From: Flavobacteriales bacterium
GTDB taxonomy: Bacteria > Bacteroidota > Bacteroidia > Flavobacteriales_G > JALEGO01
Assembly: GCA_020631045.1 (NCBI GenBank)
Contig: JAHDHZ010000009.1
Location: forward strand, 7,752-59,014
Length of the DNA stretch: 51,263 bases
Reading direction: 5' to 3'
Part shown: in pieces, positions 1 to 44,661 of the stretch
Position numbering within the stretch: the first letter of the stretch is position 1
Layout: every line of letters starts with the position of its first letter
Translations under genes and position numbers: made by a program
The notes under the pieces: model-generated
Told to the model about the DNA's origin: nothing
What the model saw: the letters and a program-made list of their open reading frames with translations, nothing else
Databases searched by the model: none

Positions 1-758
1 AATGCATCAGCTTCAATATTTAAGATATCTAACTGCATTCTTGAGAGGTTTGTAACTACAGCAGCAAGAGGTAAGTGATAAAAAGTACCAATTTCCCACG
101 GGAAGACCTCACCATGATCTACAACATCTTCTAGACTAAAAGCTTTTTCTAGCGTATTGAATAAAACAGGGTTTTTTGCTTTATCAAAGTCTTTTAATAT
201 TACTGATTTAAAGTCTTCAATTTTTTGCTTTAAGTTCAATGCACTATAATAATCAGTTGCAGGTCTAGGATTGGCTAGATCTCCACCAATCATCTCTCCA
301 GAGGGTACATCGTAGTTGTCTTTCACGAGTACTTTTTTCAAAACTAAAGTAGTGTCTGAGGCTGGAGACATCAAAAATTTTGTCAAACCAGCTTGATCTT
401 CTGGACCTAAAGCACTAACTAGCCCTTCAGGAACTTCGAAACTACCATCTGTACGAATCATTAAATACCTTTTCAATTCTTCAATATGCTTATAAAGCTT
501 GTCTGCTTTATCTTTTATTGTCTTTGCACTTTGAAGACCTTTTGCGTAGGCATCATCTTTTGCAGCTTTGCTTGTAAAGAATTTGATTGTCTCCTCATTT
601 TTATCTTCAAGACCTATATTAGATTTTTCTAGACCTTCATTCACTACCACAAAAGAATTAATTAACTCTTTTGGTGCATTCATTGCTAAAAGGGCTGTGA
701 GTACCAAGTACATCATACCAACCATCTTTTGCCGTGGGGTTTCTTTACCACCTGCCAT
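1..758 (-). CDS. gldM: Gliding motility / type IX secretion protein GldM (partial)
   Basis: This is the periplasm-spanning subunit of the GldL-GldM rotary motor that powers the type IX secretion system and gliding. The reading frame starts at the ATG whose complement is 756-758 (MAGGKETPRQKM) and runs off the left edge, leaving about 252 of the usual 500 or so residues. A single membrane segment at about residues 12-30 (MVGMMYLVLTALLAMNAP) is the family hallmark: a short cytoplasmic N-terminus, one helix inserted in the GldL bundle, then a long periplasmic part. It lies 57 bases downstream of gldL on the same strand, in the conserved gldK-gldL-gldM order; gldN would be expected just outside the window. 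Identification is firm from the N-terminus and the synteny. Confidence 0.95.
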   Translation of the reverse strand, partial: MAGGKETPRQKMVGMMYLVLTALLAMNAPKELINSFVVVNEGLEKSNIGLEDKNEETIKFFTSKAAKDDAYAKGLQSAKTIKDKADKLYKHIEELKRYLMIRTDGSFEVPEGLVSALGPEDQAGLTKFLMSPASDTTLVLKKVLVKDNYDVPSGEMIGGDLANPRPATDYYSALNLKQKIEDFKSVILKDFDKAKNPVLFNTLEKAFSLEDVVDHGEVFPWEIGTFYHLPLAAVVTNLSRMQLDILNIEADA

Positions 759-815
759 AACTTCTAGTTTTTGTTGTTGTTAAATAGTTGTGTTGCTAAT
801 TTATAATTTGTGCTT

Positions 816-1658
816 TTATTTACTGAAGTTCATAGCATTTAACATGTTGCCATATACTGTATTTAAAGCTGATAAATTAGAGCTTAATTCTGAGATATTT
901 TCTCGGTACTTTTGAGTGTCTTCAACTGAGTCATTTAAGTTCTTAACTAAATCTGTAACTCCTTTAGACATTTGTGCAGCAGCATCTAAATTATCTGAAG
1001 TTTCTTGTAATTGATTTTCATACATTGCATTTAATTTAGAAAGATTATCTGTGATTTTTCTCATTTGTTCACCATATCCTGCACCATCTTCAGGAGAAAT
1101 ACCAATATCAGATAATGAATCAGCAGCTTTAGAATAGCTTTCAGATAGATTAGCTACGCTATTAGAAGCTCCTCTTAAGTTGTTTGTGAAGTCATCTGAA
1201 GCAGAGGTAATGTCAGCTAATTTTGAAGTCTGATCTGTCAATGACCTAAAACCTTTACCTAGGCTTTCGATTAACTCAGGACCAATTTTAGCCTCATTTA
1301 ACATTTCATCTAATTGTTGAGAAACTGCAGAATTGGCTCCTGAGCCAGAAGATAAAGCGCCAACGGCTACATTTGAGCCTTCTAGGGCATCTAAATCACC
1401 AGAGTCACCTAATTCTAATTGAGGATATACCAGTGACCAATCCCAATCTTTTTCTTCATGCAAGGGTTCAAATGCAGAAAGTACGAAAATGACAGCCTCA
1501 GTACTTAACCCAAAAATAAGCATGATATCTGCACCAGGCCAGTGCATAATTTTAAATAATGCTCCGACAATTACAATGGCTGCACCAAAACCATAAACGA
1601 ATTTCATGATGTTTTTAAATTTCTTACTTGCAAAAAAGCTATCTGAATTTGCTGACAT
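816..1658 (-). CDS. gldL: Gliding motility / type IX secretion protein GldL
   Basis: Inner-membrane subunit of the T9SS/gliding motor, thought to convert proton flow into rotation of GldM. The 280-residue product has two closely spaced membrane helices at about residues 17-37 and 44-63, separated by a short HWPGAD turn. Glu54 inside helix 2 (STEAVIF) matches the essential intramembrane acidic residue known from GldL/PorL. The remaining cytoplasmic part (about 95-280) is Ser/Asn/Leu-rich with heptad-like spacing, as expected for the long GldL coiled-coil tail. The gene follows gldK after a 297-base gap that contains a strong terminator, so its expression may be partly independent of gldK; gldM follows after 57 bases. 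Confidence 0.95.
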   Translation of the reverse strand: MSANSDSFFASKKFKNIMKFVYGFGAAIVIVGALFKIMHWPGADIMLIFGLSTEAVIFVLSAFEPLHEEKDWDWSLVYPQLELGDSGDLDALEGSNVAVGALSSGSGANSAVSQQLDEMLNEAKIGPELIESLGKGFRSLTDQTSKLADITSASDDFTNNLRGASNSVANLSESYSKAADSLSDIGISPEDGAGYGEQMRKITDNLSKLNAMYENQLQETSDNLDAAAQMSKGVTDLVKNLNDSVEDTQKYRENISELSSNLSALNTVYGNMLNAMNFSK

Positions 1659-1830
1659 AATCTCTAAATTTTAAGTTTTTAAATAATTGTTTCTTTCTAA
1701 TTGTTTAGCCTATAACGAGACCTTACACATTTGGTTACAACAACAATACAATTTTTTTCTGAACTAAAATCAAAGAGGTTTTAAATTTTAATTTAGAAGT
1801 TGCTTAAAGTCTTTATCAAATAAATGGTTT

Positions 1831-1867
1831 AAGCCTGTTATTCTTTGTAACAAGGCTTTATTTTTTT
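1831..1867. terminator. Second hairpin with T-run between gldK and gldL
   Basis: Imperfect inverted repeat: left arm AAGCCTGTTA at 1831-1840 and right arm TAACAAGGCTT at 1848-1858, with one bulged base, followed on the plus strand by a T-rich run to 1867. In terminator polarity it faces the plus strand, where no gene precedes it. On the minus strand it lies just after the gldK terminator, in the gldL leader. It could be an antisense terminator or a leader structure; its function is unknown. Confidence 0.4.
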
Positions 1868-1890
1868 AGCACAGTCCTAGGTAAGAAAAC

Positions 1891-1927
1891 AAAAAAGGAG
1901 GTGAAAAAAATAATCACCTCCTTTTTT
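1891..1927 (-). terminator. Rho-independent terminator after gldK
   Basis: Perfect 14-bp stem: AAAAAAGGAGGTGA at 1891-1904 pairs with 1914-1927, around a 9-base loop. Read on the minus strand it lies 29 bases after the gldK stop and ends in a T6 run, the standard intrinsic terminator form. It sits inside what is usually treated as the gldKLMN operon, upstream of gldL. The symmetric A and T runs mean it could also work in the other direction. Confidence 0.8.
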
Positions 1928-1955
1928 AAGATCTTTCTAATAGCTGTTTTAAGAC

Positions 1956-3299
1956 TTATAAATCGTCTCCTTTAGAACGTCCTAAATACGTTTGAACATT
2001 TCTAAATCCGATATAGCATTTGCCAGTATCTTGGTATTCATAAGCTCTAGAACTTGTCTGCATGAAATAGCCAACATCTTTCCAAGAGCCTCCTCTAATA
2101 ACTTTCCTTTTTAATACAGGAAGATCATCATCTTTAGCTTCATATACATAATCCATATTTAAATCATGTGAGATATCGTAAGAAGACTCATCAAATGCAT
2201 TACTCGTCCACTCAGAAACATTACCTGCCATGCAATATAAACCATAGTCATTTGCAGAGTAAGAAGTTGCTTTAACAGTATGGAATCCACCGTCATCAAT
2301 ATAATTACCTCTTAATGGCTTAAAGTTACCTAAGAAACAACCTTGTAAGTTTCTGATGTAAGGACCACCCCATGGGTAAGGAGATTGATCTAAACCACCA
2401 CGAGCAGCGTATTCCCACTCAGATTCAGTAGGTAATCTGAAATCATGTACCCATGAACTCCCTACAGAAGATAAATAACTGTTCATTAAATCTGTTCTCC
2501 AGATTGAAAATGCACGAGCTTGCTTCCAAGATACTCCAACAACTGGATACTCATCATAAGCAGGATGAGAGAAATACATTTTTGTCATGGGTTCATTGTA
2601 AGAATAAGTAAAGTCATGAATCCAACACAAGGTATCAGGGTAAATGGGAATAATGTCTGTCTTGATGAAGACTGAACGATCTTCAATACCTCTTTGTCTT
2701 AATTTATCACCCTTGTTAGTAGGAGACTTTCTAGCAGCATCTTTATAATCAATCCATGAGTAGCTGTACTGCAAATAATCAGGATCAATTTCTCTTCTGT
2801 TTTTGAATCTTTCATGAGAAGCAAAATACAACTCAGGCTCTAATACCTGCATGACTTCTGGATCTTCTAAATCAATGTCTTCATCCCAGTTGATTCTTGG
2901 GATTTCTAAAGGCTCACCATAGTAATCTTCAGTGATTAAGTGATCTTCATAACCACTATTACCCAAGATTTGATGCATAATAGAGTCTCTCACCCAAAAA
3001 ACAAACTGACGATACTCATTATTAGTAATTTCAGTCTGATCCATATAAAAAGCTTGAACAGAAACAGTTTTAGCTTTAGTTGTATGAGAATAAGGTGCAT
3101 CTTGATCACTTGGCCCCATCACAAAACTTCCCATCGGAATGTATAACATACCGTAAGGATCAGCTTGATACCAAATTTGTCTACCTTCTACACCTGTAAG
3201 GTTGCCCTGAGATGAACTGTCACATGAACTGATTAAGGTACTTATCACGAAAAGTGTAAGTATATACTTAATATATGATATTGGATTGTTGTTTTTCAT
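1956..3299 (-). CDS. gldK: Gliding motility lipoprotein GldK (FGE-sulfatase fold)
   Basis: Outer-membrane-associated lipoprotein that forms the periplasmic ring of the T9SS together with GldN. The 447-residue protein starts with a lipoprotein signal (hydrophobic core about 11-24, then lipobox ISSC with the Cys near residue 26). The rest is a formylglycine-generating-enzyme-like domain: VSWKQARAFSIW, LPTESEWEYAARGG, YCMAGNVSEWTSNAF, VIRGGSWKD and GFRNV are all recognisable. In GldK this fold is structural, not enzymatic. It lies 43 bases after porP/sprF and is followed by a strong terminator, then gldL. GldJ has the same fold, but position directly before gldL-gldM favours GldK. Confidence 0.93.
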   Translation of the reverse strand: MKNNNPISYIKYILTLFVISTLISSCDSSSQGNLTGVEGRQIWYQADPYGMLYIPMGSFVMGPSDQDAPYSHTTKAKTVSVQAFYMDQTEITNNEYRQFVFWVRDSIMHQILGNSGYEDHLITEDYYGEPLEIPRINWDEDIDLEDPEVMQVLEPELYFASHERFKNRREIDPDYLQYSYSWIDYKDAARKSPTNKGDKLRQRGIEDRSVFIKTDIIPIYPDTLCWIHDFTYSYNEPMTKMYFSHPAYDEYPVVGVSWKQARAFSIWRTDLMNSYLSSVGSSWVHDFRLPTESEWEYAARGGLDQSPYPWGGPYIRNLQGCFLGNFKPLRGNYIDDGGFHTVKATSYSANDYGLYCMAGNVSEWTSNAFDESSYDISHDLNMDYVYEAKDDDLPVLKRKVIRGGSWKDVGYFMQTSSRAYEYQDTGKCYIGFRNVQTYLGRSKGDDL

Positions 3300-3342
3300 T
3301 TAGGTTCTTTAAAATAAACGCGCTAGGTAAATTATTTATTGT

Positions 3343-4317
3343 TTATCTACCCAAAAATCGAATATCCTGCTTTTTCTCTTTCTTATCTTCTTGCTCTAAA
3401 TCATAGCAGAAGCTTACCATGATTTCATGAGAACCATTACTATAATTTTTGATTGTTGAAGTAGTTACATCATAAGAGTAACCTACTTTGATCGTTCCTT
3501 TCTTGATGATTCCCTCTTTTTGCATACCAATCATTGGAGCAACAGCATCTTGTAATCTGTATGAAACACCAGCCCAAAACATTTTCTTATACATGGCAAT
3601 GGCGTTGAAATCCATCTGAGTAGAAGAGCCGTCAGTTTTAATGAACGTAGAAGGTAATATAGAAAGGTCTAGACCTTGAAAGTCATATTGGTAACCTGCC
3701 ATGATGTAGTAGTGTCTTGCAATATCATATGAAAAAGCACTTGCTGTTTCTTCAAGAGTTTGTGCAGGTAAGTGTAACAAAGAAAGCCCTACATACAATT
3801 TGTCTTTGATTTCATAGTAACCACCAAAATCCATGTCGTAAGTCCATTTGTTTGCTCCGTTCTGAGGAATTGAAGGGTCTAATGCTGGAGCATCTGGTGC
3901 AATCCAATCTTTTCCGACATTCACATTTACAGCTCCTAACGACAAACCTACACCTAAGTTACCAGGCCCTACACTAAATCTGTAAGCACCAGCAGCTTTG
4001 AAACCTGAGTAACTAAATTGACCTAATTGATCATTGTACACAGATAATCCAACACCAATAGGTAATTCAGTAACCATTGATAAAGGCATATGAGCTGTGA
4101 ATAAATAGGTTTCTGGTTTGCCTTCAAATCCTACCCATTGTTGACGTGCTAATAAGGTTCCGCAAATTGCATTTTTACTACCGACATATCCTGGGTTTGG
4201 GAATTGACGGTTGAACATATTTTGTGAAAACTGAGGATCTTGCTGGGCAGATGTTTGTAAACAAGATAAAGTCGCTAAAGCGAAAACTGCTGCAAATTTG
4301 GTAAACTTCTCTTTCAT
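3343..4317 (-). CDS. PorP/SprF family type IX secretion membrane protein
   Basis: Predicted outer-membrane beta-barrel of the PorP/SprF family. Members attach partner proteins or the ring complex to the outer membrane in T9SS, and SprF is needed for SprB surface display. The 324-residue product has a signal peptide ending near residue 25 (TSAQQ) and then the family opening QQDPQFSQNMFN...NPGYVGS, followed by alternating amphipathic strands rich in Gly, Tyr and Phe (for example VGLSVYNDQLGQF, YYIMAGYQYDF). It directly precedes gldK with a 43-base gap, matching the porP-porK-porL-porM order known from Porphyromonas. Whether it is the orthologue of PorP or only a paralogue cannot be told from sequence reading, so no symbol is given. 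Confidence 0.9.
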   Translation of the reverse strand: MKEKFTKFAAVFALATLSCLQTSAQQDPQFSQNMFNRQFPNPGYVGSKNAICGTLLARQQWVGFEGKPETYLFTAHMPLSMVTELPIGVGLSVYNDQLGQFSYSGFKAAGAYRFSVGPGNLGVGLSLGAVNVNVGKDWIAPDAPALDPSIPQNGANKWTYDMDFGGYYEIKDKLYVGLSLLHLPAQTLEETASAFSYDIARHYYIMAGYQYDFQGLDLSILPSTFIKTDGSSTQMDFNAIAMYKKMFWAGVSYRLQDAVAPMIGMQKEGIIKKGTIKVGYSYDVTTSTIKNYSNGSHEIMVSFCYDLEQEDKKEKKQDIRFLGR

Positions 4318-38284: not shown

Positions 38285-38366
38285 GCCCAGGTGGCGGAAT
38301 TGGTAGACGCGCTGGTCTCAAACACCAGTGAAGCAATTCGTGCCGGTTCGAGCCCGGCCCTGGGTA
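38285..38366 (+). tRNA. tRNA-Leu (anticodon CAA)
   Basis: Class II tRNA of 82 bases without encoded CCA. The acceptor stem GCCCAGG (38285-38291) pairs with CCTGGGT (38359-38365; G-T at the first pair), with discriminator A at 38366. The D-arm contains GGAATTGGTAGACGC. The anticodon stem CTGGT/ACCAG encloses the loop CTCAAAC with anticodon CAA, reading UUG. A variable arm typical of tRNA-Leu follows. The T-arm GCCGG-TTCGAGC-CCGGC spans 38342-38358. A terminator follows directly. Confidence 0.95.
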
Positions 38367-38370
38367 CACG

Positions 38371-38399
38371 AAGCCTCAGATATTTTCTGGGGCTTTTTT
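38371..38399 (+). terminator. Rho-independent terminator of tRNA-Leu
   Basis: AAGCCTCAGA (38371-38380) pairs with TCTGGGGCTT (38386-38395) with one G-T pair and a 5-base loop, followed by T's to 38399. It starts four bases after the tRNA. Confidence 0.85.
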
Positions 38400-38414
38400 A
38401 AAACATCTAATGCT

Positions 38415-38966
38415 ATGCTAGTAGAATCTAATTTTCTTCAAAAAGAAACTCTTGCACCGGACTTTAAGCTGATAAATACATTAGATGGTCAAATGGTTAG
38501 TTTGGTCGATGAAAAAGGTGCAATTGCTACTGTAGTCATGTTTATTTGCAACCACTGCCCATTTGTATTGCATGTCAATGATGAGTTGGTGAGGTTGGCT
38601 AATGATTATATGAAGCAGGGCGTAGGATTTATAGCTATCAGTAGTAATGATGTAAATTATGTGCCCCAAGATGGACCTGAACAAATGAAACTGCATGCTC
38701 AAAAACAAGGATATCCTTTTGTGTATTTATATGATGAAACTCAAGAAGTTGCTAAGTCATACGATGCTGCTTGTACACCTGATTTTTATGTATTTGATCA
38801 AAACTTTAAATCAGTTTACCATGGACAATTATGTGATTCGAGGCCTTCAAATAAGATAAAGGTTACAGGCGCTTCAATACGCAGTGTTTTGGATGCCCTA
38901 ATAGCAAAAAAACCTATAGAGGTTGTAGAAGAACCTTCTATAGGCTGTAATATCAAGTGGAAGTAA
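38415..38966 (+). CDS. Thioredoxin-fold (AhpC/TSA-like) protein
   Basis: 183-residue cytoplasmic protein of the thioredoxin/peroxiredoxin-like superfamily. It opens with LAPDFKLINTLDGQMVSL, the AhpC/TSA-type start, then VVMFICNHCPFVLHV with the redox pair C45-N-H-C48, followed by FIAISSNDVNYVPQDGPEQM, VAKSYDAACTPDFYVFD with the cis-Pro before DFY, and YHGQLCDSRP. The CNHCPF motif is characteristic of a subfamily usually annotated as thioredoxin family protein. The start is set at ATG 38415: the open frame extends further left but runs through the tRNA and its terminator, which cannot be coding. The substrate is unknown. It ends 6 bases before the opposing K/E-rich gene. Confidence 0.88.
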   Translation: MLVESNFLQKETLAPDFKLINTLDGQMVSLVDEKGAIATVVMFICNHCPFVLHVNDELVRLANDYMKQGVGFIAISSNDVNYVPQDGPEQMKLHAQKQGYPFVYLYDETQEVAKSYDAACTPDFYVFDQNFKSVYHGQLCDSRPSNKIKVTGASIRSVLDALIAKKPIEVVEEPSIGCNIKWK

Positions 38967-38972
38967 GCCTTT

Positions 38973-39578
38973 CTACTTTACTTTTTCTAAAATAGACTTC
39001 TTTACTTTTTCTTTCTCTGCCTTCACTTTTTCTTCTAACACTTTTTCTCTTTGCTCAAGGTCTTCTAATTTTTTTCTTTTTTCTTTATAAACCTCTTCAC
39101 TGACCTCACCTTTACTTTTACGCTCTTCTAAGCGATCTTTGGCTTTGTTGATTTTTTCTTTGGTTTCAGAAACTTGTTTATCGACTTCATCTACTTTTGC
39201 TTCTACTTCTTTTTTTGTTTTAGGCTTATTTTTAGCAGCAGCGGCTCTGGCTTGCCCAAATTCTTTACCCGAAAGCTCGCCTTTGTTTTTGCCATAGGCG
39301 TGGACTTCTTTTTCTTCTAATTTACCGTGGTCGTGATCATGATCTTTGATTTTTTCTTTGCCTTTACCCAGATGTTTTTCTTTTATTTCTTTGCCCTTCT
39401 TAGCAACATCTTGTTCAAGCTCTTCAAGTTCTTGGTCGGGTTTTTCTTTTCCTTTTTTTTCTAGAGATTTTTGTTCTTTTTTAAGTAAGCCTTTGCCTTT
39501 ACCTTGAGCAAAAAGTGCAGGAGAAAAGCTGACTAACCCAGCTAACATTAGGGTTGCAAATAAATTCTTTTTTTTCAT
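38973..39578 (-). CDS. Secreted Lys/Glu-rich coiled-coil protein with His-Asp patch
   Basis: 201-residue exported protein of very low complexity. A signal peptide (about 1-24, MKKKNLFATLMLAGLVSF...ALFAQ) is followed by highly charged sequence dominated by Lys and Glu. The middle contains KDHDHDHGKLEEKEVHAYG (about 75-95), a His/Asp patch that could bind divalent metals, and EFGQARAAAAKNKPK. The last 90 residues (VEAKVDEVDKQVSETKEKINKAK...LEDLEQREKVLEEKVKAEKEKVKK) have strong heptad character and should form a long coiled coil. I recognise no family. It follows the small lipoprotein gene by 31 bases and may be co-transcribed with it. Confidence 0.75.
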   Translation of the reverse strand: MKKKNLFATLMLAGLVSFSPALFAQGKGKGLLKKEQKSLEKKGKEKPDQELEELEQDVAKKGKEIKEKHLGKGKEKIKDHDHDHGKLEEKEVHAYGKNKGELSGKEFGQARAAAAKNKPKTKKEVEAKVDEVDKQVSETKEKINKAKDRLEERKSKGEVSEEVYKEKRKKLEDLEQREKVLEEKVKAEKEKVKKSILEKVK

Positions 39579-39609: not shown

Positions 39610-39807
39610 TTATTCTTCTATAGATTCTAGTAAAGCATCAACCTCTGCATCAATATTAGCTGACTCTTGCTCTAATACTTCTACCTCTTGATTTAACGCT
39701 TCAACTTCAGCAGAAACTTCTTGTTGTACTTCTTCTTGTTTTTGTGCACCTGAAGAACATGATGCTAAGAGCGCCGAAAAAGCAAATACGTAACTTATTT
39801 TTTTCAT
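39610..39807 (-). CDS. Small coiled-coil lipoprotein (Lpp-like in form)
   Basis: 65-residue lipoprotein. The start is set at the Met whose complement is 39805-39807 (MKKISYVFAFSALLASCSSG), because it gives a correct lipoprotein signal with lipobox LASC (Cys17); a longer in-frame extension upstream would bury the signal. The mature part is a short acidic Gln/Glu-rich heptad-repeat helix (VEALNQEVEVLEQESANIDAEVDALLESI), like Braun lipoprotein in general form but without a C-terminal Lys for peptidoglycan attachment. It sits 70 bases after the SprB-DUF547 gene and before the K/E-rich gene. No specific function can be assigned. Confidence 0.72.
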   Translation of the reverse strand: MKKISYVFAFSALLASCSSGAQKQEEVQQEVSAEVEALNQEVEVLEQESANIDAEVDALLESIEE

Positions 39808-39877
39808 TTGATTTAAAATTTGTTTGAGCGTGGTGTAACGCCTAAACATAAAATAAGTTTCATTTTGTAAAAACCTT

Positions 39878-41137
39878 TTAGTCATTCAAATCCCAATCAT
39901 AAAACTTGTAAGTGATTGAAGTATTGCTGTTAATCGTAGTATTTGAATACTGATTGATGTAATCAATTACAGTACCGTTTTGTATGAAATCTACCGAATA
40001 CCAGTTGAACAATTGAGAAATATCAACAGCATTTGCGTTTAATGTATTTAGGGTGGAATTGTTGATGAATTCTATGGTATTTGACTGCAATAAGCTTTGT
40101 AAGTTGTTTTCTGTATAAGCCTCATTAACAAGCCTTGGGCAACTTTTGGCCCCACAATTTACCGCAAAGTGAATTCTTGGTTCGTTAAATTGAGGTCTAA
40201 TGATGTCATTTTCAACTTGGTTTAAGGTGTAGGTATTTCCGTCCAAATTGATAAAGGCAATATCAAAGGCATTGTTGCCCCCTTGGCTGATGTCCATAAT
40301 GCTGTTTAAAGGCCAGTTGACTAAAATAATTTTTACGGTATGTACATTGTAAACATTGATCCAATAGGCCAATTTTTTATTATTTGACCAAGAGTTTTCA
40401 GGAAAGTTTTGATCAAGTAAATCAATATAGGCATTGATTTGAGCAATATCAGAGGCCATGCCTGTATAGCTTACATTGCCTTGATTGCTTACATGGTTGT
40501 TTAGAAGGGTATTCCAAATATCATGTGAAAATGTATTTGTGGGTGGATTACCCGGTTGGATGTTTGCTGTAGCGTTGGTTTGACAATTATTGGCATCTGT
40601 TACCGTAACAGAATACGAGCCAGAAGCTAAATTGTTTTGATTTTGACTAGTGCTGGAATTTGACCACTCATAAGTATACGGCGCTGTGCCTCCACTTACA
40701 GTAAGACTGATCGATCCGTCACCCGCATTTTGTAAAGACTCATCTACTGCAGAAGATGTTACACTAAAGTTTTCGCATGGATCTTCATCAACCGAACTAG
40801 CTGACAAGACACTAACTTGCCCTGAATCTATGCAACCTAGCTCATCAGTTACTGTATAGCTGTACTGACCAGGTGCTAAATTTGAAATCACTGAGGTCGT
40901 ATCTTGGTTACTCCACTGAAAGTAGTAAGGTGTTTGCCCTCCGTTTACTAAAAGAGATGCAGCGCCGTTATTTGCATTTTCAAGTGTTTCATTGATTACA
41001 GAGCTTGAAACATTGAGTGCGCAGGAGTCTTGATTAATGGGTTGAGGCAGTAGGTCTTCTTCAGGTGTTTCTTTTACACATGAAGCGCAAAAACATAAAG
41101 AACTAACAATGGTAAGAAATACGAGTAAATGTTTCAT
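39878..41137 (-). CDS. SprB-repeat + DUF547 lipoprotein
   Basis: 419-residue lipoprotein (lipobox CASC, Cys20). Two SprB-type repeats lie at about 38-110 (GGQTPYYFQWSNQDTTSVISN, PGQYSYTVTDELGC) and 120-192 (GGTAPYTYEWSNSSTS, SGSYSVTVTDANNC). A DUF547 domain follows at about 203-415 with KKLAYWINVYNVHTVKII, EPRIHFAVNCGAKSCPRL and ISQLFNWYSVDF. DUF547 is thought to be a cysteine-protease-like fold of unknown activity; the Cys in VNCGAKSCP and nearby His are kept. The domain is clearly paralogous to the next gene upstream (41149-41868), from which it is separated by 11 bases, so it arose by duplication plus gain of SprB repeats. Confidence 0.85.
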   Translation of the reverse strand: MKHLLVFLTIVSSLCFCASCVKETPEEDLLPQPINQDSCALNVSSSVINETLENANNGAASLLVNGGQTPYYFQWSNQDTTSVISNLAPGQYSYTVTDELGCIDSGQVSVLSASSVDEDPCENFSVTSSAVDESLQNAGDGSISLTVSGGTAPYTYEWSNSSTSQNQNNLASGSYSVTVTDANNCQTNATANIQPGNPPTNTFSHDIWNTLLNNHVSNQGNVSYTGMASDIAQINAYIDLLDQNFPENSWSNNKKLAYWINVYNVHTVKIILVNWPLNSIMDISQGGNNAFDIAFINLDGNTYTLNQVENDIIRPQFNEPRIHFAVNCGAKSCPRLVNEAYTENNLQSLLQSNTIEFINNSTLNTLNANAVDISQLFNWYSVDFIQNGTVIDYINQYSNTTINSNTSITYKFYDWDLND

Positions 41138-41148
41138 AACAATAATAT

Positions 41149-41868
41149 TTAGTTGTTGACAGCCCAGTTATATTCTAAAAATGAAATTTTAGCACTTGAG
41201 CTTACTTTTATTGAATTGTATTTATTTATAAAGTCTATTAAACTACCTTTTTTGGTGAAATCACCCTTATACCACTCAAATATCTTAGAGAGTTGTACAC
41301 TTGAGCTAGAGATTTTATTGCGTGAGGCATCTGCTAAAAATCGTTTGGTTTGCTGAGTCAATTGAGCAGCCAACTTGCTCGGTAAAAAAGCCTCATTTCT
41401 TAAGTTAGGGCAACCTTTGGCAGCGCAATTTACAGCAAAGTGAATACGCGGCTCATTGAAACGCTTTCTGATAATGCCGTTTTCAATGTTGTTTAAAGAA
41501 TAAAGCTTTTTTTCTGCTTTGATAAAGGCAATGTCCCAGGGGCCTTTGCCAGATTTGTTAATCTCTTTGATGCTTTTTACAGGCCAATTGTTGACCATTA
41601 ATAAAATAGTATTTGCATTGTATAGGTTGATCCAATAAGCTAATTTTTGATTGACATTCCATGAAGATTTAGGTTGGTTGCCCTGTAGTGCTTTGATGTA
41701 GGACTCGAGTTTTGAGCGGTCTGCTTTAAAGCCATTGTAATTAACTGCTCCGTTAGTACTTACATGTTTTTTGAGCAATGTATTGAAACTAGTATGTAGA
41801 GCATCACCTTGTGCAATGGAAGTTGAAATAAATAAAGTACTAAACAGAGATAAAAAAAGATGTTTCAT
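41149..41868 (-). CDS. Secreted DUF547 protein
   Basis: 239-residue exported protein: signal peptide about 1-19 (LFSTLFISTSIAQ) and a single DUF547 domain. Diagnostic segments are NQKLAYWINLYNANTILLM, GPWDIAFIKAEKKLYSLNNIENGIIRKRF, EPRIHFAVNCAAKGCPNLRNEAF and LSKIFEWYKGDFTKKGSLIDFINKY. Activity of the family is unknown; it resembles transglutaminase/cysteine-protease folds. It begins 3 bases after the TonB-dependent receptor gene, so both are surely on one transcript, which suggests a role in handling the receptor's substrate or assembly at the outer membrane (inference). Confidence 0.88.
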   Translation of the reverse strand: MKHLFLSLFSTLFISTSIAQGDALHTSFNTLLKKHVSTNGAVNYNGFKADRSKLESYIKALQGNQPKSSWNVNQKLAYWINLYNANTILLMVNNWPVKSIKEINKSGKGPWDIAFIKAEKKLYSLNNIENGIIRKRFNEPRIHFAVNCAAKGCPNLRNEAFLPSKLAAQLTQQTKRFLADASRNKISSSSVQLSKIFEWYKGDFTKKGSLIDFINKYNSIKVSSSAKISFLEYNWAVNN

Positions 41869-41871
41869 AAT

Positions 41872-44181
41872 TTAAAATGTAATGTTTACGCCCAAAGAAG
41901 GCAAAATAGGCAATTGATTGACCCGCTCAAATAAGATACGGTCAAAATAAAATATATTGTCTCGATTATACAGATTGGTTACTCCTAGATTGATGTCCAT
42001 TTCAGAGTTTTCTGAAAAGTAAATTTTTCGAGATAGATTCAAGTCTAGGCGGTGGTAGTCAGGTAAACGCCCTGCATTGATGTCTCCATAAAAAATGCCT
42101 AGGCTACCGTTTTGAGTTGTATAATCTGTGTTAATACCATCAGCGAAATCAAATTGCTCATAAAATCCTTGGGTTTGCGTAAAAGGAAAGCCTGATCCAA
42201 AATTAAAACGTGCAGAAAACTCCCAATTAAGGTCTTTTCCGAATGTATAATTAGCGACTAGATTTACATTATGTCTTCTGTCAAATATAGGCCTATACTC
42301 AATCACTCCGTCGTATCTATTTGATTTTGCCCAAGAATAAACGGCCCATAAATTAAGGCGTTTGAACTCATACTTCAATACAACATCAACTCCATATGCC
42401 TCTCCGGTTTCAATAATAAAATCTTTCTTTAAAATGTCGGGACGTTGAGCATTGTCAGCATCGTCATTGAAGAGCTTGTTTCTATTGATGTTTGAAAGTT
42501 GAGTGAAGTCTTTGTAATAGCCCTCAACATTTAAATGCAAACGTTTTGATAAATCAGATTCAATCCCTGCGATGTAATGAATGGCTTTTTGTAATTCATG
42601 AGTGCGTTCTTTTGAACTGCCATCTGCATAATAAATGGAGTCTTGAAGATTTTCAGGGCCAGAAAGAAAGCCATTAAATAAATTCACAACATCTCGATCG
42701 GCATTTGAGCTGATTAAGTTTTGAGAATAAACTCCTGTGGCGAGCTTAAACCTCAAACGGTCTGTTGCATTGAATTTAAGCCCAAATCGAGGTTCTAAAG
42801 AAAAAGTAGACAAAGAAGCGTAGTACTGAATGCGCAGACCCGGATCAATCACGAGCTTTCCTTTATTGATCGTAGAATTTACATAACCTGAAAGTTCTGT
42901 AGTAAAGGCTTCTTGAGAAATCTTTCTGTTTAAGAAGTTAAAGAAGGTGAAGTCTGTTGAAAATCCTAAAATCTGAAAGCCATATTTAAAGGTATTGTCT
43001 CCTTTAAAGTGTGTGAAATTAAAATCTAGATTAAATGAACTAATGTCACTACTTCTATCGTTGGTGTTGGCCTCTGAAAAATCAACACCATATTGAGAGT
43101 AGGCAAAATTTCCATCAATCAAAGTAGTTGAGGTTGCTGGAACCAAGACAAAATTTGACCCCAATCCGAAGGTATTCCAACTCAAATTAGAAATGGCCCC
43201 TTGAGAGACTCTATCAGCATAATTGAATCCAAATAAGTTGAATTTACTACCGTTGTTTCCATTGAAAGAAAGTTTGCCATACAAATCTGTAAAAGAAAAG
43301 GGCAGGCCGTTAGAATCGGCATAAGTATAAAGCGCTTTAGAAGTTTTGTCTAAATAAGAGGTTTTACCCGTCAGAATAAAAGAAGAAGATCCGCTCGAAT
43401 TTTCAGTCTGCTTTTTCAAAGGCCCCTCTAAAATAGCTTTGGCGCCAAAAGTTGTCAGTCCTACTTTACCTGCCAATCTGTTTTTATTGCCATCACGCGT
43501 TGTGATGTCCATAATAGAAGAGATTCTTCCGCCATATTCAGCGTTAAATCCACCCGTGTAAATATCAGCGTTACGCATAATATCAGTTTCAAACACAGAG
43601 AATAATCCAATCGAGTGAAAGGGGTTGTAAATGACCATGCCATCAAGCAAAACTTTGTTTTGAATCGGAGAGCCTCCTCTGATATATAATTGACCACCTT
43701 GATCGCCCGTGAAGACAACACCTGGCAAGACTTGCATGTACTGCGCAATATCAGCCTCTCCGCCAATGCTAGGTAAAAGTTCAATTTGCTTGGGTGTAAT
43801 CTTAGTGACAGACATCTGTACTGCTTTTTGGGCAGCTTGAGATTGAGCCGAAATTTCGACAGCATCAAGTTCAACTGCGACTTGTTTTAAATACAGCTTT
43901 TCAGAAACGATTTGTCCCTTTTTAACGTCAACTTGTTTCTTTAGACTATCATATCCAACAGAGGTAATCATGATCGTATGCGCACCTGCCGGCACAGAGG
44001 TAATGGTGAAAAATCCATTGACATCAGTAGCAGCTCCTAACTGCGTACCTTGTAAATAAACAGTGGTAAAAATAATGGGTTCTCCTGTTTTTTGATCGTA
44101 CACAAAACCTCTAACCGTACCTTGTTGAGCAAACAGGCCAATCCATCCAAACAGTAAAAAAGAGAACAATAAATTTTTCAT
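41872..44181 (-). CDS. TonB-dependent outer-membrane receptor with CarboxypepD_reg domain
   Basis: 769-residue outer-membrane transporter. A signal peptide (about 1-18) precedes a carboxypeptidase-regulatory-like domain (about 20-105: GTVRGFVYDQKTGEPIIFTTVYLQG), the TonB plug (about 125-235: MSVTKITPKQIELLPSIGGEADIAQYMQVLPGV, YIRGGSPIQNKVLLDGMVIYNP, FNAEYGGRISSIMDI) and a 22-strand-type barrel to the C-terminal Phe (LPSLGVNITF). There is no SusD partner next to it, so it is a stand-alone receptor rather than a glycan-uptake pair. It heads the operon with two DUF547 genes. A TATATTTG box on the minus strand ends six bases before its ATG. Confidence 0.93.
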   Translation of the reverse strand: MKNLLFSFLLFGWIGLFAQQGTVRGFVYDQKTGEPIIFTTVYLQGTQLGAATDVNGFFTITSVPAGAHTIMITSVGYDSLKKQVDVKKGQIVSEKLYLKQVAVELDAVEISAQSQAAQKAVQMSVTKITPKQIELLPSIGGEADIAQYMQVLPGVVFTGDQGGQLYIRGGSPIQNKVLLDGMVIYNPFHSIGLFSVFETDIMRNADIYTGGFNAEYGGRISSIMDITTRDGNKNRLAGKVGLTTFGAKAILEGPLKKQTENSSGSSSFILTGKTSYLDKTSKALYTYADSNGLPFSFTDLYGKLSFNGNNGSKFNLFGFNYADRVSQGAISNLSWNTFGLGSNFVLVPATSTTLIDGNFAYSQYGVDFSEANTNDRSSDISSFNLDFNFTHFKGDNTFKYGFQILGFSTDFTFFNFLNRKISQEAFTTELSGYVNSTINKGKLVIDPGLRIQYYASLSTFSLEPRFGLKFNATDRLRFKLATGVYSQNLISSNADRDVVNLFNGFLSGPENLQDSIYYADGSSKERTHELQKAIHYIAGIESDLSKRLHLNVEGYYKDFTQLSNINRNKLFNDDADNAQRPDILKKDFIIETGEAYGVDVVLKYEFKRLNLWAVYSWAKSNRYDGVIEYRPIFDRRHNVNLVANYTFGKDLNWEFSARFNFGSGFPFTQTQGFYEQFDFADGINTDYTTQNGSLGIFYGDINAGRLPDYHRLDLNLSRKIYFSENSEMDINLGVTNLYNRDNIFYFDRILFERVNQLPILPSLGVNITF

Positions 44182-44250: not shown

Positions 44251-44661
44251 CTACAAGCCTTGACTCATTTTTAAAATGTGCTCGTATTCTTTCTGCTCAA
44301 CAGGAGCAACCGATAAACGTTGCTGTTTGAGAAGCACCATTTCAGCTAAGTTCGGATCAGCTTTAATGTCTTTCAAGGTGACCGGCACTTTGAATTTTTC
44401 AATAGGCTTTACGTCAACAGCTACCCAACGCGTATCATCAGTTGTAGGGTCTTGGTAATGCTCTTTGATGATTTCTGTCACTCCGACAATTTCTTTGCCC
44501 TCATTGCTGTGGTAATATAGGGCTTTATCGCCTACTTTCATGGCTTTTAGATTGTTGCGAGCTTGATAGTTTTTTACCCCATCCCAATAGGTAGAGCCAT
44601 CTTTTTCGAGGTCTTGCCATGAGTATTTATAAGGTTCTGATTTGATGAGCCAGTAGTTCAT
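44251..44661 (-). CDS. EVE domain-containing protein
   Basis: 136-residue single-domain protein of the EVE (PUA-like) family: MNYWLIKSEPYKYSWQDLEKDG, WDGVKNYQARNNLKAMKVGDKALYYHSN and GIVGVTEI-like KEIVGVTEIIKE are diagnostic, with VLLKQQRLSVAPVEQKEYEHIL at the end. EVE domains bind modified bases in DNA or RNA (5-methylcytosine and derivatives in some members). The gene is short, has no fused domains, and lies 28 bases after the HEAT-repeat gene on the same strand. No restriction genes are nearby, so this is the stand-alone housekeeping form. Confidence 0.92.
   Translation of the reverse strand: MNYWLIKSEPYKYSWQDLEKDGSTYWDGVKNYQARNNLKAMKVGDKALYYHSNEGKEIVGVTEIIKEHYQDPTTDDTRWVAVDVKPIEKFKVPVTLKDIKADPNLAEMVLLKQQRLSVAPVEQKEYEHILKMSQGL

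Follow-up and report, generated by a model that had tools for sequence, protein, structure and literature searches.

In other Bacteroidia, DUF547 (PF04784) genes of one subgroup, here called subgroup A, are found inside or beside the arsenosugar locus, which comprises genes for ArsS (TIGR04167), a peroxidase-like protein (TIGR04169), TIGR04282, TIGR04283, and AsSugarArsM (NF038099), and arsenosugar loci on proteobacterial plasmids also have DUF547 genes inside or beside them. Also comparable are the SprB-repeat surface proteins of Bacteroidota (PF13573), SprB repeats being typical of large surface proteins, and the SusC/SusD and BtuB/BtuG receptor-lipoprotein pairs (the latter likened by name only), with which the locus described here shares a TonB receptor gene near a probable surface-lipoprotein gene. 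In the literature found, no bacterial function was assigned to DUF547 by title; the only paper on DUF547 and arsenic was one on tomato, and a link of DUF547 to arsenosugars was not found in print, as far as our searches reached. Searches of phage records gave no match.

Here we describe two DUF547 genes that follow a TonB receptor gene in a window of 51,263 nucleotides (the whole stretch of DNA that was analysed) from a Flavobacteriales bacterium. Both proteins scored more than three times the curated cut-off for DUF547 and kept the near-invariant residues; the locus differs from the DUF547 family generally in that the two copies stand in tandem and one of them is carried on SprB repeats. The latter protein, of 419 aa, resembles the SprB-repeat surface proteins in its two repeats above the cut-off, whereas it is short, probably lipid-anchored, and ends in DUF547, with the tail typical of type IX secretion (T9SS) not found. 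Unlike SusC/SusD, the window receptor was not SusC by TIGR04056 and had no SusD, and its pairing with the lipoprotein was not conserved. In contrast to the arsenosugar locus, the window genome had no ArsS, TIGR04282, or AsSugarArsM over cut-off.

Organization of the locus and the two DUF547 proteins

The genes of the locus lay on the minus strand in the transcription order EVE-domain gene, TonB receptor gene, 239-aa DUF547 gene, 419-aa fusion gene, small lipoprotein gene, and gene for a 201-aa protein (Table 1). The ORF coordinates bore out the spacing given in the initial annotation, with 3 bases (41869–41871) between the receptor gene and the 239-aa gene, and 11 bases (41138–41148) between the latter and the 419-aa gene. 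The small lipoprotein was listed as a 91-aa ORF at 39610–39885, which probably begins at 39807 as read from the sequence. Beyond these genes, a tRNA-Leu (38285–38367) overlapped the listed start of a redoxin-like ORF (38328–38966), and the true start of this ORF is therefore further in.

Table 1. Positions of the features of the DUF547 locus in the window
Feature	Position	Strand	Basis
EVE-domain gene, first in transcription order, directly before the receptor gene	44251–44661	-	
TonB-dependent receptor, 769 aa, CarboxypepD_reg and Plug, not SusC	41872–44181	-	ORF and Pfam
239-aa secreted DUF547 protein, subgroup A; N-terminal hydrophobic signal, lipobox absent by crude rule	41149–41868	-	
PF04784 core of the 239-aa protein, residues 68–178	41335–41667	-	Pfam
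419-aa probable lipoprotein: signal, two SprB repeats, C-terminal DUF547 (subgroup A)	39878–41137	-	
Imperfect lipobox CASC, residues 17–20 of the 419-aa protein, then V-K-E-T	41078–41089	-	Sequence, crude rule
SprB repeat 1 of the 419-aa protein, about residues 57–102, borders by eye	40832–40969	-	Pfam and sequence
SprB repeat 2 of the 419-aa protein, about residues 140–185 by eye; Pfam best stretch 138–163	40583–40720	-	
DUF547 region of the 419-aa fusion, residues 205–418; full-length homology to the 239-aa protein	39884–40525	-	
Small coiled-coil lipoprotein, 65 aa, likely start MKKISYVF	39610–39807	-	Read from sequence
201-aa secreted coiled-coil-like protein	38973–39578	-	ORF

PF04784 matched the 419- and 239-aa proteins with 89.8 and 87.3 bits, respectively (curated cut-off, 27), and the two DUF547 regions showed 43% identity. 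When 146 DUF547 regions were aligned and numbered according to the 239-aa protein, eight residues were near-invariant: N81 (143 of 146), Y83 (144), N84 (143), E129, H143 (143), P154, W199 (145), and D203. Cys148 and Cys153 were both kept in 137 of these regions, both lost in 8, and singly lost in 1; this joint loss fits a disulfide or dithiol site. Both window copies retained the eight residues together with C148 and C153, and both had Asn at position 130, which was His in 93 of the 146 regions. The motifs that had been described as common to both copies were confirmed: the neighbouring genes encode members of a single family, each with the shared motif residues intact, and a check for loss of the putative catalytic residues found none lost from either copy.

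No solved structure was matched by DUF547 at the sequence level. AlphaFold2 predictions gave pLDDT 76 and pTM 0.77 for the 239-aa protein (4 sequences), and pLDDT 66 and pTM 0.54 for the 419-aa fusion (5 sequences). Comparison of the DUF547 models with solved structures by Foldseek and VIA-align returned no PDB match at E <= 0.001 and a VIA Z of at most 5.1, and nothing among these results was trustworthy. The missing match to a papain- or transglutaminase-like fold is not evidence against such a fold.

The SprB profile PF13573 matched the 419-aa protein twice, with 48.7 bits against a cut-off of 28. The T9SS C-terminal sorting domain had no match in this protein, the C-terminus of which is occupied by DUF547. 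The block at window positions 3–4317, which we take to resemble gldM/gldL/gldK with a PorP/SprF-like gene, suggests that type IX secretion is likely present in the organism. The lipobox of the fusion, with Cys at position -3, is imperfect and passes the crude rule. The optimal lipoprotein export signal reported for Capnocytophaga canimorsus is C-X-K-(D/E)2-X (PMC5080379); the C-V-K-E-T of the window fusion agrees with C-X-K-(D/E)2 only partially, and the corresponding signal of a second fusion, in a genome of the same genus (G001), is C-T-K-D-K-D. As judged from these signals, the 419-aa protein is likely displayed on the surface. Among subgroup-A DUF547 proteins, crude N-terminal rules found an export signal in 75 of 76 and a lipobox in 20 of 76, the latter scattered over the subgroup. 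A lipid-anchored subclade "A2" was considered and dropped, the crude lipobox occurring in 4 of 13 proteins of A2 and 16 of 63 of A1. Export signals and the lipobox, by these crude rules, supported the proposed division into one soluble secreted protein and one that is probably lipid-anchored and carried on SprB repeats.

Receptor context and recurrence of the fusion

The receptor scored 54.2 bits against the SusC/RagA model TIGR04056, far below its cut-off of 368, and no SusD gene was present among the nine neighbouring window proteins scanned. The description of the receptor as SusD-less was therefore correct, and the absence of SusD is expected because the receptor is not SusC. Scanning the contigs of named genomes with the receptor gave 80 loci, all of which were covered by the DUF547 search, some of them ending at contig ends and five with the receptor ORF unplaced. 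A DUF547 gene was present in two of the 80, one of the same genus (L064, which fits G001) and one of the same family (L065, which fits G002) as the window, both thus within its own family. Elsewhere, the genes next to the receptor were varied and often of a housekeeping kind; those sampled (nine proteins scanned) encoded CTP synthase, an O-methyltransferase with a glycosyltransferase, a TPR protein, prolyl oligopeptidase, ribosomal protein L21, YidC, and an AIR-synthase-like protein. Receptors of this type occur widely and adjoin DUF547 within one family only, where the adjacency was kept in three genomes of two genera (the window genome G000, G001, and G002). The receptor is most likely a positional neighbour with its own history, perhaps co-transcribed, and not a dedicated DUF547 partner. 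The EVE-domain gene directly preceded the receptor gene in the window and in L064, L065, L074, L085, L087, and L118.

The initial annotation had proposed a joint role of the receptor and both DUF547 proteins and had looked to recurrence of the trio for its support; the trio of receptor, DUF547, and SprB/DUF547 was found in no other genome examined, and this proposal fails on that point. The order in G002 was EVE, receptor, DUF547, and polA, with the fusion not found, whereas in the window DUF547 and polA are separated by the fusion, two small genes, and the redoxin-like gene. In the congener G001, the receptor-DUF547 pair was followed by an MgtE-like gene, and the fusion, which had 505 aa and three SprB stretches, was on a separate contig from the receptor, one that ended about 100 bases before the fusion gene. 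Near this fusion was a relative of the 201-aa protein with 58% identity, and beside it a 155-aa gene occupied the position of the small lipoprotein of the window. Among the matches listed, none of the 42 genomes of the order apart from G000 and G001 had the fusion, and the window genome was the only one to have it in a sample of 395 genomes of the phylum. Restriction of the fusion to G000 and G001 assumes that long matches rank first among the matches listed, and the 419-aa query gave at least 54 matches in G000, mostly to the repeat part.

In the trees, the 239-aa copy grouped with those of G001 and G002 and the fusion copy stood elsewhere in the same subgroup, with weak support. Forcing the family's five members into one group cost 2.7 to 4.1 log-likelihood units (AU p 0.375 and 0.391) in sets of 35 and 38 rows, which were a hand-picked part of the subgroup; three long-branch rows were left out of the larger sets. 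The nearest BLAST relatives of the two copies likewise did not favour either origin. These comparisons neither establish nor rule out a tandem duplication as the source of the two copies. The second copy had been described as having gained a lipobox and two SprB repeats: the fusion does carry two repeats and an imperfect lipobox, but their gain after a tandem duplication is unproven, given the scattered lipoboxes, the weak trees, and the AU p of 0.39.

Association of DUF547 subgroup A with arsS

The starting clue was that, in six genomes of the order, a relative of the 239-aa gene was directly followed by TIGR04169-like and ArsS-like genes, the families being named on one of them. We therefore surveyed 295 genomes of the class, in which ArsS was scored as TIGR04167 over cut-off. 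ArsS was present in 47 genomes and DUF547 in 75, with both in 44. In the tree, a subgroup A of 78 tips (support 0.96) contained both window copies. Subgroup A was present in 55 of the 295 genomes, and 39 of these were among the 47 with ArsS (Fisher p 7.5e-28, kinship ignored). The association was weaker for subgroup B (ArsS in 12 of 23 genomes, p 2.5e-5) and subgroup C (12 of 27, p 2e-4), and in genomes without A neither was tied to ArsS (1 of 3 for B and 4 of 15 for C). The tree was built without six of the 152 unique regions, each of them under 140 aa; G255 and G262, represented by fragments only, were unclassified, and a weak DUF547 place (G220:C144) was not in the classified set. COX1 was nearly universal, being present in 283 of the 295 genomes, and aerobic life alone therefore does not explain the association; this control covers oxygen use, not habitat. 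The subgroup-B proteins (L035:6995-8569 and others) were of about 525 aa, and in the two that were scanned the C-terminal 280 or so residues had no Pfam match. In G003, a fourth genome of the window's family, a subgroup-B gene (550 aa) and a subgroup-A gene (242 aa) lay about 1.2 kb apart on one contig (L043).

The association was also seen in gene position. A DUF547 gene lay within 5 kb of 17 of the 47 ArsS genes, against 0.22 expected by random placement, and the other 30 of the 47 ArsS genomes had no DUF547 gene within this distance. With genomes of the order added, ArsS-DUF547 adjacency was found in 22 genomes of 11 families, and two of these genomes (G122 and G312) had a subgroup-C gene beside ArsS. 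The immediate same-strand order DUF547-TIGR04169-ArsS occurred in several families, and other neighbours of the ArsS-linked DUF547 genes were TIGR04282, TIGR04283, AsSugarArsM, and purine nucleoside phosphorylase. Subgroup C adjoined ArsS in G141 (L163), G312 (L153), and G122 (L160); in G141, DUF547 genes of two subgroups flanked ArsS, which suggests repeated recruitment.

Sixteen of the 55 subgroup-A genomes, that of the window included, lacked ArsS, and the function of the subgroup therefore cannot depend on the arsenosugar pathway. In the family of the window, PF12345 found ArsS in none of the four genomes (G000 to G003), TIGR04167 matched in G000 only at 4.8e-5, below cut-off, and neither TIGR04282 nor AsSugarArsM was found over cut-off in the four. 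Because the completeness of the window genome is given as 98.6%, the absence of ArsS from it is probably real. G003 had two partial AsSugarArsM matches and a partial TIGR04282 match of 83.8 bits, and may hold a broken-up or contaminating arsenosugar cluster.

On plasmids, four of the five ArsS loci viewed had a DUF547 gene within about 6 kb, namely those of Hymenobacter volaticus, Burkholderia glumae, Acinetobacter portensis, and Cupriavidus sp. KK10 (by HMM, the record being unannotated there); on the plasmid of Pseudanabaena galeata, DUF547 was not near ArsS. A different setting was found in Alteromonadales, where the TonB receptor gene was two genes before DUF547 in all three loci viewed (Pseudoalteromonas CF6-2, L254; Catenovulum, L256; Pseudoalteromonas Bsw20308, L257), in the order TonB receptor, TVP38/TMEM64-FAD oxidoreductase, DUF547, ABC transporter, CDP-alcohol phosphatidyltransferase, and sterol desaturase, with no ArsS in view. 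This operon, possibly an uptake or lipid locus, resembles that of the window in having a receptor shortly before DUF547, but it differs in the intervening oxidoreductase, in the ABC transporter and lipid genes that follow, in having no SprB protein in view, and in a receptor dissimilar to that of the window (BLASTP E 0.029 and 0.10 for two of them, no more than chance). On a Legionella plasmid, a member of the DUF547 family lay beside recR. An IMG/VR contig (L258) had a truncated DUF547 gene before other genes, either as host DNA in a chimera or as cargo; a gene fragment near it is presumably the end of a purine nucleoside phosphorylase.

Interpretation of the two probably extracytoplasmic DUF547 proteins

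We tentatively favour the reading that the window encodes one domain in two extracytoplasmic forms; elsewhere the conserved context of this domain is arsenosugar chemistry, and here it would have been kept after loss of the pathway. The 239-aa form would be a signal-peptide protein free in the periplasm, and the 419-aa form a probable outer-membrane lipoprotein in which a stalk of two SprB repeats ends in DUF547. In an arsenosugar setting, we infer DUF547 to be a small envelope enzyme or binder, with a putative site made up of the conserved N-x-Y-N helix, the near-invariant His, and the paired Cys-x4-Cys. Its substrate might be a product or precursor of an arsenosugar-type locus, that is, a small molecule that is glycosylated or reacts with thiols. 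In the window lineage, which lacks ArsS and its partners, the domain would have been kept and a second copy placed on a stalk, bringing the same reaction or binding to the cell surface.

It is rather unlikely that DUF547 acts outside arsenosugar chemistry, as an envelope protein of general thiol or stress function, retained by bacteria of the same kind and frequently located in the same genomic islands. The subgroup-A genomes without ArsS agree with this, as do the redox genes in ArsS clusters, the thioredoxin and CcdA genes at the Burkholderia and Acinetobacter loci, and members in other settings such as that beside recR in Legionella; on the other hand, the immediate DUF547-TIGR04169-ArsS order on one strand in several families, the lack of any ArsS tie for B and C without A, and the near-universal COX1 all argue against it. 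A distinctly less probable reading treats the locus as a module: a ligand, first captured or trimmed at the surface by the SprB/DUF547 lipoprotein, would be imported through the receptor and then processed by the DUF547 protein of the periplasm. The short intergenic gaps and the adjacency kept in three genomes are consistent with such a module, and the independent Alteromonadales operons of Pseudoalteromonas and Catenovulum, taken with that adjacency, make some link of DUF547 to uptake possible. Against it stand the two DUF547-bearing loci among 80, both from one family, the CTP synthase, ribosomal L21, YidC, AIR-synthase-like, and peptidase genes that adjoin the sampled receptors otherwise, the chance-level similarity of the two Alteromonadales receptors to that of the window, and the fusion itself, which in G001 is not next to the receptor and in G002 was not found. 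We are equally doubtful that the lipoprotein serves as an adhesin or surface stalk, with its DUF547 head turned into a non-catalytic binding module: the intact near-invariant residues of the fusion, the Cys pair and His included, speak against this, whereas the kind of protein in which SprB repeats usually occur, the abundance of repeat matches in G000, and the rarity of the SprB and DUF547 pairing (two genomes among the matches listed) would suit it.

An extension of the favoured arsenosugar reading, which we consider unlikely, is that subgroup A works outside the cytoplasm as a hitherto unrecognised part of arsenosugar or arsenolipid metabolism in Bacteroidota, with DUF547 relatives acting likewise in Proteobacteria, and that the window organism, having lost the synthesis, retained the step in the envelope and copied it onto a surface stalk. 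If this were true, the organism would act on organoarsenicals, or on analogous glycosides, made by others. The fusion shows that a DUF547 domain can move onto what is probably a surface stalk. Given the tie to arsS, arsenosugar biosynthesis may include a step in the envelope, and for DUF547, which is widespread, the tie of one subgroup to arsS provides a concrete pathway in which its function can be tested.
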